Source: Candidatus Pelagibacter sp. IMCC9063 (GTDB lineage Bacteria; Pseudomonadota; Alphaproteobacteria; Pelagibacterales; Pelagibacteraceae). Taken from it: a DNA stretch of 64,000 bases. How positions within the stretch are numbered: the first letter of the stretch is position 1; each line of letters begins with the position of its first letter. The position numbers were made by a program, and so were the translations under genes. The stretch spans positions 606,001-670,000 of the forward strand of contig NC_015380.1 of assembly GCF_000195085.1 (NCBI RefSeq), written 5' to 3'. The notes under the pieces were generated by a model. It did not search any database. It was not told the origin of the DNA and worked only from the letters and a program-made list of their open reading frames with translations. Positions 41,222 to 45,043 of the stretch are shown piece after piece.

Positions 41222-42421
41222 ATGAGCATACTATCAGAATCTTTATCTAGAATAAAACCATCTCCTACTATGGCTGTGGTTAAAAAAGCCACAGAGTTAA
41301 GATCTGCTGGAAAAGACATAATATCATTAGGAGCAGGAGAGCCAGATTTTGATACTCCTGAAAATATTAAGCAGGCTGCTATTGAGGCCATCAAAGATGG
41401 AAAAACAAAATACACAGTAGTAGATGGCACTATCGAGCTCAAGAGAGCTGTAATTGGAAAATTTAAAAGAGAAAATAACTTAATTTACAATGAAAAGCAG
41501 GTGACTGTAGGCGTTGGTGGGAAACATGTTATTTTTAACGCAATTTTAGCAACTATCAATCCAGGAGATGAGGTTTTGATACCGGCTCCTTACTGGGTGT
41601 CCTATCCCGATATTGTATTGTTGGCCGGAGGCACTCCTGTAATAGTTGAGTGTGAGGAAAGTGCTGACTTTAAGATTCTACCAGAACAAATAGAAAAGAA
41701 TGTTACCAAAAATACAAAATGGATTATTTTAAACTCGCCTTCTAATCCAACCGGTTCTGTTTATTCGGAACAAGAGCTAAAAGATATTGGAGAAGTTTTA
41801 AAAAAATTTCCAAATGTTCATATTATGTCTGATGATATCTATGAGCATGTTCTTTATACGAAAAATAAATTCTTCACCATTGCCCAAATTCCAGAATTGT
41901 TTTCTAGAACGCTTACCATTAATGGATTGAGCAAATCATATGCTATGACAGGATGGAGAGTTGGCTATGCAGGTGGACCAGAAAATATCATTCAAGGTAT
42001 CGCAAAGATTCAATCTCAATCTACAACCAATACCTCATCCATTAGCCAAGCAGCTGCAGAAGAAGCTTTGAATGGAACGCAGGATTTTATAAAAAAACGA
42101 TCAGATGCATTTAAAGAGAGGAGGGATTTTGTTGTAAAAAAACTTAATTCCATAGAAGGTCTTTCTTGCAAAAATCCAGAAGGTGCATTTTATGTTTTTC
42201 CTAATTGCAAAGACTGCATTGGAAAAAAAGACATTAATAAAAAAGAAATTGTAAATGATGCAGATTTTGTCACTTCGTTGTTGGAAAACACAGGCGTGGC
42301 TGTTGTTCAAGGATCTGCTTTTGGAAAGGAGGGGTATTTTAGAATTTCTTATGCGACTTCTATGAAGAACCTTTCTGAGGCTTTAGATAAAATAGAAGAG
42401 TATTGTAAGCAACTATCTTAG
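41222..42421 (+). CDS. aspC: Class I aminotransferase, aspartate aminotransferase type
   Basis: A 399-residue fold-type I PLP enzyme. Signatures are SLGAGEPDFDTPENIK, LNSPSNPTGSVY, DDIYEHVLY, and the PLP lysine in NGLSKSYAMTGWRVGY. It most resembles the bacterial aspartate/prephenate aminotransferase (AspC/AatA, class Ib). It converges with trxB with a 4-bp overlap. Its promoter must lie inside the 5' end of uvrB or in the 17-bp gap. Confidence 0.9.
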   Translation: MSILSESLSRIKPSPTMAVVKKATELRSAGKDIISLGAGEPDFDTPENIKQAAIEAIKDGKTKYTVVDGTIELKRAVIGKFKRENNLIYNEKQVTVGVGGKHVIFNAILATINPGDEVLIPAPYWVSYPDIVLLAGGTPVIVECEESADFKILPEQIEKNVTKNTKWIILNSPSNPTGSVYSEQELKDIGEVLKKFPNVHIMSDDIYEHVLYTKNKFFTIAQIPELFSRTLTINGLSKSYAMTGWRVGYAGGPENIIQGIAKIQSQSTTNTSSISQAAAEEALNGTQDFIKKRSDAFKERRDFVVKKLNSIEGLSCKNPEGAFYVFPNCKDCIGKKDINKKEIVNDADFVTSLLENTGVAVVQGSAFGKEGYFRISYATSMKNLSEALDKIEEYCKQLS

Positions 42422-43368
42422 TTTTTTTCAGATAGTAATTTTTCAGCTTCCAAGGCTGCCATGCATCCCATACCTGCTGCAGTCACCGCCTGTCGAAACG
42501 TTTTATCTTTTACATCCCCAGCTGCAAAAATTCCCTTTATATTTGTTTTGGTAGAGTCGGGATCTGTGAGAATATATCCTTCGGTATCCATTTTAATTTG
42601 ATCTTTAAAAATTTTAGTTGCTGGATCATGACCAATTGCCACAAAAACACCATGAGTATTTAATTGTTTGGTAGTTTTGTCTTTTGTGTTTTCTAACAAT
42701 ACTCCGGTAACTCCCTTTGGGTTATCAGTTCCAATTATTTCTTTTACTGCACTATCCCAAATAATATTAATTTTCGGATGGGAAAGAATCTTTTGTTGTA
42801 AAAGCTTTTCTGCCCTTAGGGTGTCTCGTCGATGAACTAGCGTTACCTTCGATGCAAATTTAGTTAAAAATAAAGCCTCTTCAACTGCTGCATTACCACC
42901 ACCCACAACCATTACTTCTTTATCTTTGTAAAAAAAACCATCGCAAGTAGCACACGCGGAAACTCCAAATCCTCTAAACTTAGTTTCACTTTCTAAATTA
43001 AGCCAGCGAGCTTGTGCCCCTGTAGATATGATAACAGAATCGGCTGTATAGGTAGTTCCACTTTCTCCAATTAATATAAATGGATTGCTGGTAAAATTTA
43101 CCTCTTTGATCATATCATTTTCAAAAATCGTACCCACAGCTTCTGCTTGTTTTTGCATTTCCTCCATTAACCAAGGACCTTGTATTACATCAGAAAATCC
43201 AGGATAGTTTTCTACATCAGTAGTAGTAGTTAGCTGACCTCCGGGCTCCATTCCAGAAATAAGAGTTGGTTTAAGCATGGCTCTAGCAGCATATATTGCA
43301 GCAGTATATCCAGCTGGACCCGACCCTATGATTAATACTTTTGAATGTGATTCTTTATTTTGACTCAT
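42418..43368 (-). CDS. trxB: Thioredoxin-disulfide reductase
   Basis: A 316-residue flavoprotein that reduces thioredoxin with NADPH. It has the FAD motif IIGSGPAGYTAAIYAARA, the redox-active CATCDGFFY, the NADPH motif VVGGGNAAVEEA, and the C-terminal FAD stretch GIFAAGDVKDK. It overlaps the end of the aminotransferase gene by 4 bp and diverges from the ELM1-like gene with 47 bp between. Confidence 0.96.
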   Translation of the reverse strand: MSQNKESHSKVLIIGSGPAGYTAAIYAARAMLKPTLISGMEPGGQLTTTTDVENYPGFSDVIQGPWLMEEMQKQAEAVGTIFENDMIKEVNFTSNPFILIGESGTTYTADSVIISTGAQARWLNLESETKFRGFGVSACATCDGFFYKDKEVMVVGGGNAAVEEALFLTKFASKVTLVHRRDTLRAEKLLQQKILSHPKINIIWDSAVKEIIGTDNPKGVTGVLLENTKDKTTKQLNTHGVFVAIGHDPATKIFKDQIKMDTEGYILTDPDSTKTNIKGIFAAGDVKDKTFRQAVTAAGMGCMAALEAEKLLSEKN

Positions 43369-43415: not shown

Positions 43416-44384
43416 ATGAAAAATATTAATGCTTGGTTATTAACAGAGGGTGCCCATGGCATGATCAGTCAAGTTGAAGGATTGGCAAAAGCGCTCAACG
43501 TAAATTTTATTCATAAAAAAATAGTTTACAACTCTTTCTGGAGTTTGATCCCACCTTCAATATCCCCCACAAGCAGGAATACTTTTAATTTTTCTAATAT
43601 TATTGAGTACAATTCAGCAAACAAAAGGCCAACCCTTTTGATTTCATGCGGAAGAAAAAGTGTTATTCCATCTATAGTCCTTAAAAATTATTTACATACA
43701 AAAAATAATATGGAAGTTTATAATATTCATATTCAAGATCCAAAAGTACAAATTAACAATTTTAATTTTATTGTTGTTCCTGAACACGATCGATTAGAAG
43801 GAGAGAATGTTATTAAATCTAAGGGAGCTATTCATTATATTACAGACGAAGAAATTCAGGGCGCTAAAGCTCTGGCCTTAAGTAAAAATGTTTTAACCGT
43901 AATTCTTGGTGGCCCAACTAAACATTATTCTTTTTCATTAGGAGAATTAAAACAATTGTTTCATAAAATAGAACTACTTTTCCTTCACAAGGTTGAAGAA
44001 GTTAAAATTGTTTCCTCAAGACGTACACCGGAACTAGTAGTGAGTTTTTTACAAGATAGGTATAAGGATAATGCAAGAGTCGTTGTAGATTCTTCACTTT
44101 CCAGAAAAAACTATATTGAGGCCCTTGCCCAGGCTAAAAAAATTATTGTCACTTCCGATTCTATTTCCATGCTATCCGAGGCAGCCACTACAGGAGTGCC
44201 AATCTATTTAGCTAAATTAAAATCTTATAAAAATGATCATCGTTTTGATAGTTTTTTAAAATCATTTAAAAAACTTAATATAATTAAAGATTTAGAAACA
44301 AATGAAGATAGCTGGACTTATGATAAGCTTTATGAGACTAAAAGAATTGCTGAATTGTTAAAAAATAAAATTATATTGTCATGA
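43416..44384 (+). CDS. ELM1-like (mitochondrial-fission ELM1 family) protein
   Basis: A 322-residue protein of the family named after plant ELM1, whose bacterial members have no established role. The fold suggestion is GT-B glycosyltransferase-like: the N-terminus reads WLLTEGAHGMISQVEGLAKAL and the C-terminal half has LGGPTKHYSFS and IIVTSDSISMLSEAATTGVPIYL. The last stretch looks like a nucleotide-sugar binding site; this is an inference. The ATG at 43416 is used. It overlaps the next gene, a 2OG-oxygenase, by 4 bp, so the two are likely expressed together. Confidence 0.75.
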   Translation: MKNINAWLLTEGAHGMISQVEGLAKALNVNFIHKKIVYNSFWSLIPPSISPTSRNTFNFSNIIEYNSANKRPTLLISCGRKSVIPSIVLKNYLHTKNNMEVYNIHIQDPKVQINNFNFIVVPEHDRLEGENVIKSKGAIHYITDEEIQGAKALALSKNVLTVILGGPTKHYSFSLGELKQLFHKIELLFLHKVEEVKIVSSRRTPELVVSFLQDRYKDNARVVVDSSLSRKNYIEALAQAKKIIVTSDSISMLSEAATTGVPIYLAKLKSYKNDHRFDSFLKSFKKLNIIKDLETNEDSWTYDKLYETKRIAELLKNKIILS

Positions 44385-45043
44385 GCTTTTTAAATTCTGT
44401 TAAAAATCAATCAAATAAATTAAGCGATCCTTTTGTTCACTGGGAATTTAATAACCCTCTTACAGAAAAGATGATTGATGAAATTTATAATACCGAAATA
44501 GACGATCCTACTAGATATGAAATTAACTATGATGGAACCAGAGCTATAGATGGAGGAGACGGAAATTTTAGGGAAGGAATTTCTGATGGTGGAAAGGCAT
44601 TAAAATTTAGATGTTTTTTAGAAAAACATAACACCCAAGAATTTCCGGAGTTGTTCAGCCTAGTTCAGGAGCTACAATCAAAAAAAACACACGAGCATAT
44701 CGGTTCTTTAATTGGTAAGGATTTGTCAAAATCCTATGTAAGACTTGAGGTAATTTGTGATCGAAAAGGTTTTTGGCTAAAACCTCATTGTGATATTAAG
44801 GAAAAATTGCTTTCTTGCCTCCTGTTTGTAAATCGTTTTGGAGAGTCTGAAGATCTTGGAACAGACTTTTATAGTTCCAAATTAAAATTGGTAAAAACAG
44901 TTCCTTACAAAAATAACTATGGTTACTTTTTTAGTAGTGACAAAAATAGTTGGCATGGCATGGAAAAAAAAGTGATTCAAAAAGACAGAAGATGTATACA
45001 AATAAATTACGTTACTTTTAAAACTGATTGGCCCGTTTTGTAG
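44381..45043 (+). CDS. 2-oxoglutarate/Fe(II)-dependent oxygenase-like protein
   Basis: A 220-residue protein with a 2OG-Fe(II) oxygenase layout. The iron ligands would be the H and D of LKPHCDIKEK, plus the H of SWHGMEKK about 60 residues later. The 2OG-binding arginine would lie in DRRCIQINYV. Substrate is unknown. It begins ATGA-style inside the end of the ELM1-like gene. Only 2 bp separate its end from the convergent carB. Confidence 0.75.
   Translation: MSFLNSVKNQSNKLSDPFVHWEFNNPLTEKMIDEIYNTEIDDPTRYEINYDGTRAIDGGDGNFREGISDGGKALKFRCFLEKHNTQEFPELFSLVQELQSKKTHEHIGSLIGKDLSKSYVRLEVICDRKGFWLKPHCDIKEKLLSCLLFVNRFGESEDLGTDFYSSKLKLVKTVPYKNNYGYFFSSDKNSWHGMEKKVIQKDRRCIQINYVTFKTDWPVL

Follow-up and report, generated by a model that had tools for sequence, protein, structure and literature searches.

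The window analysed here is a stretch of 64,000 nucleotides (positions 606001-670000) from the complete genome, of 1,284,727 bases, of Candidatus Pelagibacter sp. IMCC9063. On its plus strand lies a gene for an ELM1-family (PF06258), KdoT-like GT-B glycosyltransferase of 322 aa (43416..44384, from the ATG at 43416 to the TGA at 44384), directly followed on the same strand by a gene for a 2OG/Fe(II) oxygenase of 220 aa (44381..45043, ATG at 44381 to TAG at 45043). As the preliminary description had stated, both genes overlap by 4 bp (plus strand, 44381..44384) in an ATGA stop-start arrangement, which we regard as a sign of translational coupling. An alternative upstream start of ELM1, a TTG at 43341, appears in the ORF listing. 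The pair is flanked by a divergently transcribed trxB gene for thioredoxin reductase (42418..43368, minus strand), which scores over the cut-off of TIGR01292. Neither NCBIfam nor PHROGs provided a name for the ELM1 protein or the oxygenase.

Within the Pelagibacterales, ELM1 is present in 269 of 297 genomes and the oxygenase in 258. In all 106 genomes of the order that were compared, a subset of the 297 derived from 113 oxygenase and 108 ELM1 rows among the matches listed, ELM1 is located directly upstream of the oxygenase on one strand, and the match ends are separated by -1 to 19 bases. These frequencies, together with the constant adjacency, confirm that the pair is not a product of chance. 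Among the matches listed, genomes lacking one gene mostly lack both; 12 genomes, several of them incomplete and including all four genomes of genus g9 listed with ELM1, carry ELM1 and no detected oxygenase, and one genome (G105) carries the oxygenase and no ELM1, many of these genomes being incomplete.

The assignment of the first protein as ELM1-like stood up in the Pfam comparison, where it matched PF06258 (Mito_fiss_Elm1) with an E-value of 2.8e-78 and 263.6 bits against a cut-off of 27. Its AlphaFold2 model (pLDDT 82.0, built from 7 sequences) has the GT-B architecture of two Rossmann-like domains and yielded a list of structural matches filled with GT-B enzymes, among them MGD1 (Z 18.2, rmsd 4.5, 276 residues aligned) and MurG (Z 16.9, rmsd 5.1, 287 aligned). 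The predicted GT-B fold suggested beforehand was hence found; its restriction to the C-terminal half was not, since it spans model residues 2-322.

One member of this family has been characterised. The main text of a study from 2025 (PMC12856342; precursor paper PMC10936431) reports that KdoT (GtrOC1) of Acinetobacter baumannii adds a third Kdo to Kdo2-lipid A in vitro and in vivo, that homologues from other Acinetobacter species restore the core in a deletion mutant, that a Rickettsia homologue partially rescues the barrier, and that R180 is critical and R179 dispensable. Window ELM1 and KdoT are matched by BLASTP with an E-value of 2e-15 (173 columns, 27% identity). They share PF06258, the GT-B fold, the S-R-R-T motif with the critical second arginine and the equivalents of H109/D110, but only 22% identity over the alignment. 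The SRRT of the window protein (residues 201-204; a PEHD is found at 122-125) aligns with S178-T181 of KdoT, and R203 corresponds to R180. Among 127 distinct ELM1 proteins, a set of proteins of 280-430 aa with matches at E 1e-20 or stronger, the R180 position is kept in all 127 and R179 in 121, some SAR11-type proteins having M or I at the latter; the equivalents of H109 and D110 are invariant. A second Acinetobacter ELM1 protein, encoded in the same locus, carries SRRT as well, so that the motif marks the family rather than Kdo as donor.

For these comparisons, KdoT was represented by the product of a DUF1022 gene in record CAKLQH020000002, which we took as KdoT because D8, H13, H109, D110, R179 and R180 are those given for KdoT in PMC12856342. 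The gene follows glnE-ilvE, the position described for gtrOC1 in an excerpt of PMC4172580. In Acinetobacter, KdoT differs from window ELM1 in its setting, an outer-core locus after ilvE, where it works with GnaT according to the main text of PMC12856342; no gene annotated as oxygenase lies within about 8 kb of it in the record. The locus itself (L416, CAKLQH020000002.1:20547-37038) is filed as Acinetobacter phage MD-2021a. It contains queA, glnE, ilvE and the LOS outer-core locus, and looks like a bacterial chromosome contig under a phage name.

Since Acinetobacter KdoT has been shown to transfer Kdo, bacterial ELM1 is not a fission protein. Homology to this tested enzyme lends good support to its probable role as a Kdo-type transferase of the inner core. 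The pair had been put forward as the best candidate for an undescribed small system; for the glycosyltransferase half this no longer holds, Kdo transfer by KdoT having been demonstrated in 2025 (PMC12856342, main text). The IMCC9063 genome encodes both WaaA (PF04413) and KdsB (TIGR00466), each over its cut-off. Further KdsB-like matches below the cut-off, one of them in two pieces, lie at G000:C1:65040-65734 and 79487-79687 and perhaps represent a second CMP-ulosonate synthetase. A co-loss test started from the expectation that MAGs with neither gene would also be devoid of WaaA, had the pathway disappeared; of 53 chosen genomes, 46 have WaaA and all 53 a KdsB-like match (48 over the cut-off). 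Where the pair is missing, WaaA is mostly retained, and the test therefore revealed no informative co-loss with the Kdo pathway.

The oxygenase is less readily classified by sequence. It matches PF13640 (2OG-FeII_Oxy_3) with 20.6 bits and an E-value of 9.1e-4, not reaching the cut-off of 27, and an hmmscan against all of Pfam up to E 1 returned only PF13640 and BRICHOS and no Kdo-hydroxylase family (for KdoO the family Kdo_hydroxy, which we take to be PF11004). Its iron ligands are H136, D138 and H192 (H-x-D...H), with R203 as the probable 2OG-binding arginine. None of these four residues varies among the 161 distinct relatives compared, which had been pre-filtered by profile and length (alphaproteobacterial proteins of 180-340 aa, viral ones above 180 aa, none weaker than E 1e-20), so that the iron site, whose absence from relatives would have spoken against the preliminary description, is intact throughout.

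The AlphaFold2 model of the oxygenase (pLDDT 85.7, 43 sequences) adopts a double-stranded beta-helix fold. Top-ranked by both Foldseek and VIA are the sugar-nucleoside oxygenases PasI (9ei6, 9ei7; Z 18.9, rmsd 2.7, 188 aligned) and PolD (9blq; Z 18.1, rmsd 3.0, 188 aligned); by sequence, too, 9ei6 is the only noteworthy match in the PDB (E 5.9e-4). According to its title, entry 9ei7 holds octosyl-acid phosphate, and an excerpt of PMC5365060 proposes octosyl acid as the substrate of PolD. Both enzymes differ from the window oxygenase in belonging to antibiotic-type pathways, in sharing only about 16-21% identity with it and in having a nucleoside octosyl acid as substrate. The prolyl hydroxylases OGFOD1 (Z 16.4) and Tpa1 (Z 16.1), only about 2.5 Z below PasI, and the P4H of P. 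putida (Z 15.4) share the same fold at lower Z and act on proteins. PasI and PolD function in pathways of eight-carbon sugar acids, and Kdo is itself such an acid; the resemblance is therefore suggestive, if no proof. No KdoO structure was among the best 50 structural matches, which excludes nothing.

Moving beyond the order, a profile built from 15 close oxygenases found matches in 42 of 385 alphaproteobacteria. Full-length orthologues outside the order have ELM1 immediately upstream in five of five cases. In the four such loci printed (L092, L094, L095, L096), trxB adjoins the pair in all four, carB is nearby in all four and greA in three, where all names except those of ELM1 and the oxygenase were read by eye; several lineages have carB, greA, ELM1 and trxB as neighbours. 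Among more distant oxygenase loci, ELM1 is adjacent in one of 14 (Azospirillum cavernae). In a scan of named genomes, it lies directly upstream of the oxygenase in 7/7 Azospirillum loci, where the order is ELM1, type 1 oxygenase, type 2 oxygenase, and the other 16 of the 23 loci show no ELM1 inside the retrieved stretch. PF13640 is passed by all six tested members of type 2, a second oxygenase subfamily, and by none of the three type-1 relatives tested.

Seen from the side of the transferase, all 38 genomes considered (our own and 37 with the oxygenase) carry ELM1. Around the ELM1 gene of 33 oxygenase-bearing genomes other than our own, a set biased because its genomes were picked for having the oxygenase, a 2OG oxygenase is adjacent in 13; in G541, G311 and G339 the order of the two genes is reversed. 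ELM1 was detected in 318 of 387 alphaproteobacterial genomes in a search asking for at least 90% completeness. Sixty other alphaproteobacterial ELM1 loci, a non-random sample chosen by hand in score order from the matches listed and skipping loci already seen, have a same-strand 2OG oxygenase, mostly of type 2, less than 300 bases downstream in 18 cases and no oxygenase partner in 42. In the Acidocella family, which we take to be the Acetobacteraceae, 98 of 100 genomes encode ELM1, and 34 of 100 encode a relative of the Acidocella oxygenase. The two are decoupled there, with an oxygenase near ELM1 in none of 20 loci, and 7 of 20 oxygenase loci contain a type-2/type-1 tandem. Such overlapping or close tandems of both oxygenase subfamilies away from ELM1 were seen at L376-L384, L220 and L228 and have no constant neighbours; the genes around lone oxygenases likewise display no consistent theme.

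On a tree of 124 oxygenases (of a quick kind, with duplicates dropped and one very long branch), adjacency to ELM1 as a label requires 7 changes (39 in shuffles), and starred branches force 6 of these. The link is thus clustered on the tree, yet it was gained or lost several times. The conservation across alphaproteobacteria that the preliminary description had left to be checked is accordingly partial: the pair is kept in the order and recurs across the class, but is not universal, ELM1 standing alone in 42 of 60 loci. Rare adjacency in other genomes, named there as evidence against a joint system, is likewise seen only in some samples; the genes adjoin in 106/106, 5/5 and 7/7 cases, but in 18/60, mostly with a type-2 oxygenase, and 0/20 of the other sets.

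Kdo-synthesis genes were found near the oxygenase in one of 43 loci and in none of 20 further loci of the Acidocella family. The count of 43 includes L110 (the first 20 kb of G009), which was chosen without a target and enters no adjacency count. The single case is Acidocella aminolytica (L228:1667-6633), where a tandem of a type-2 and a type-1 oxygenase has kdsD and kdsA at a distance of about 1.8 kb. With these frequencies, the linkage was rejected as a functional sign and is treated as possible chance.

Relatives of the oxygenase extend to viruses. IMG/VR contains 54 loci with such relatives, 47 of which match the oxygenase profile strongly, and 26 aligned viral rows reveal 43-49% identity to the window oxygenase. 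Four viral rows placed on the oxygenase tree fall inside a clade of marine alphaproteobacterial oxygenases. Recurrent neighbours, in clusters named by eye, are an FkbM-type methyltransferase (40 loci), a ribonucleotide reductase subunit (35 loci) and a carbamoyltransferase (19 loci); in one representative contig, Pfam identified carbamoyltransferase, FkbM and UDP-sugar dehydrogenase domains. ELM1 was absent from the viral contigs apart from one fragment, and the INPHARED phages contain no oxygenase relative at the limits used. A block common to the ocean viral contigs (L112-L158), e.g., at L114:1303-10402, comprises ribonucleotide reductase, a RuvC-like protein, a 300-aa protein, carbamoyltransferase, an SGNH-like protein, the 2OG oxygenase, FkbM methyltransferases, putative glycosyltransferases and a UDP-sugar dehydrogenase, where names without a Pfam match are our own reading. 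By its gene content, this block is a putative glycan-modifying viral cassette, a context that supports a glycan or sugar substrate of the oxygenase independently of ELM1.

We propose that the pair constitutes a small module for the inner core of the lipopolysaccharide. ELM1 would be a KdoT-like inverting GT-B enzyme that uses CMP-Kdo, or an eight-carbon ulosonic acid close to it, to add a sugar onto the Kdo-lipid A made by WaaA, and the co-translated Fe(II)/2OG oxygenase would then hydroxylate the glycan just extended. The donor and acceptor of ELM1 in IMCC9063 are what we infer here, as is the action of the oxygenase on a sugar, namely the one laid down by ELM1. An inner-core Kdo transferase with an oxygenase modifying the sugar that it adds is the best single reading of our data, and we rate its chances as about even. 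Of the possibly envelope-located glycosyltransferase and product-hydroxylating oxygenase suggested in the preliminary description, the envelope glycan has become the best-supported site of action, and the hydroxylation of the product is a deduction only. The proposal is supported by the Kdo transfer shown for KdoT, the retention of its critical R180, the WaaA and KdsB genes of the genome, the invariant iron and 2OG residues, the structural matches to PasI and PolD, the viral relatives among glycan genes, the recurrent pairing, the occurrence of both gene orders, the several changes of the adjacency label on the tree and the chemical evidence for Ko in some alphaproteobacterial LPS (PMC8036547, in part). 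Against it count the SRRT of the second Acinetobacter protein, the ELM1 genes without partner, the decoupling in the Acidocella family, the missing Pfam match to a Kdo-hydroxylase family, the closeness in Z of the prolyl hydroxylases, the uninformative co-loss test and the rarity of Kdo-synthesis genes near the oxygenase, as well as the fact that a limited literature search found no Kdo/Ko analysis of SAR11 LPS.

The same envelope module could serve a sugar other than Kdo. ELM1 would then transfer a sugar from some other CMP- or NDP-linked donor; the target that the oxygenase hydroxylates or oxidatively rearranges would be this sugar or else an acyl chain of lipid A. This agrees with the presence in the ELM1 family of other predicted Acinetobacter outer-core transferases, one with SRRT (excerpt of PMC4172580), with PasI and PolD, which do not act on Kdo, with the carbamoyl- and methyltransferases around the viral relatives, accompanied by ELM1 only as one fragment, and with the additional KdsB-like matches in our own genome. 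On the other hand, the ELM1 proteins found to have been tested biochemically or by complementation all serve Kdo transfer (PMC12856342, main text), and WaaA and KdsB occur in most genomes tested; we regard a different sugar as possible, if rather doubtful.

Two further explanations dispense with a shared glycan. That the oxygenase is a protein hydroxylase, of the type acting on prolyl residues of a ribosomal protein or EF-Tu, and merely shares an operon with ELM1 appears quite improbable to us: PasI and PolD rank first with both structural search methods, the pairing with a GT-B enzyme recurs in both gene orders, and the viral relatives reside within glycan cassettes, even if the fold also matches OGFOD1, Tpa1 and the P. 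putida P4H and many distant relatives stand alone without sugar genes. Similarly, we deem it unlikely that the adjacency only reflects inherited carB-greA-ELM1-trxB synteny, with the oxygenase having an unrelated small-molecule role. The shared neighbours in several lineages, the separation of both genes in the presumed Acetobacteraceae and the frequent lone oxygenases would fit such a case, but it is at odds with the occurrence beside ELM1 of oxygenases from two subfamilies and in either gene order, with the several label changes forced by the tree and with the tight pairing that all 106 compared genomes of the order retain.

Returning to the inner-core module, its most specific form would be the 3-hydroxylation of Kdo to Ko, a reaction carried out elsewhere by KdoO of another sequence family; as the boldest version of the oxygenase reading, we put it forward tentatively. 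KdoO, the Kdo-3-hydroxylase of Burkholderia and Yersinia, would be the functional analogue and is likewise of the Fe(II)/2OG-dependent kind; it differs in having no family-level sequence match to the window oxygenase, and the literature examined describes no KdoT-type gene next to it. In Yersinia, it converts Kdo to Ko after the Kdo transferase has acted (excerpt of PMC8533242). The discussion section of PMC8036547 gives Granulibacter bethesdensis, Acetobacter pasteurianus and Brevundimonas diminuta as species with Ko in their LPS and names no gene for its formation. Our literature search yielded no paper on the ELM1-oxygenase pair, and the words 'oxygenase' and 'hydroxylase' are both absent from the main text of PMC12856342. 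More speculatively, and with rather low confidence, the oxygenase may be the first member of a novel sugar-acid hydroxylase family (e.g., for Kdo to Ko) whose sequences differ from KdoO and which works closely with KdoT-type transferases in a highly abundant group of marine bacteria and in numerous further alphaproteobacteria. Such a family would explain the orphan Ko of alphaproteobacterial LPS and would have been acquired by ocean viruses for glycan-remodelling cassettes of their own, perhaps altering the host surface.

Read as a Kdo-type transferase, ELM1 would place a conserved core gene of highly abundant marine bacteria in a pathway. If the proposal is true, its oxygenase partner would tie one step in building their outer membrane to O2, iron and 2-oxoglutarate. 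It would also be a candidate for the Ko hydroxylase that alphaproteobacteria are missing, and would direct attention to a surface sugar which viruses of the ocean may copy or alter. As to the wider family, the ELM1 model also matches two chains of the Tetrahymena respiratory complex (8gym_T1 and 8b6f_A0, E 3e-6 to 5e-6), which perhaps represent a GT-B-derived mitochondrial subunit, and plant ELM1, the namesake of the family, may have descended from a Kdo-type transferase.
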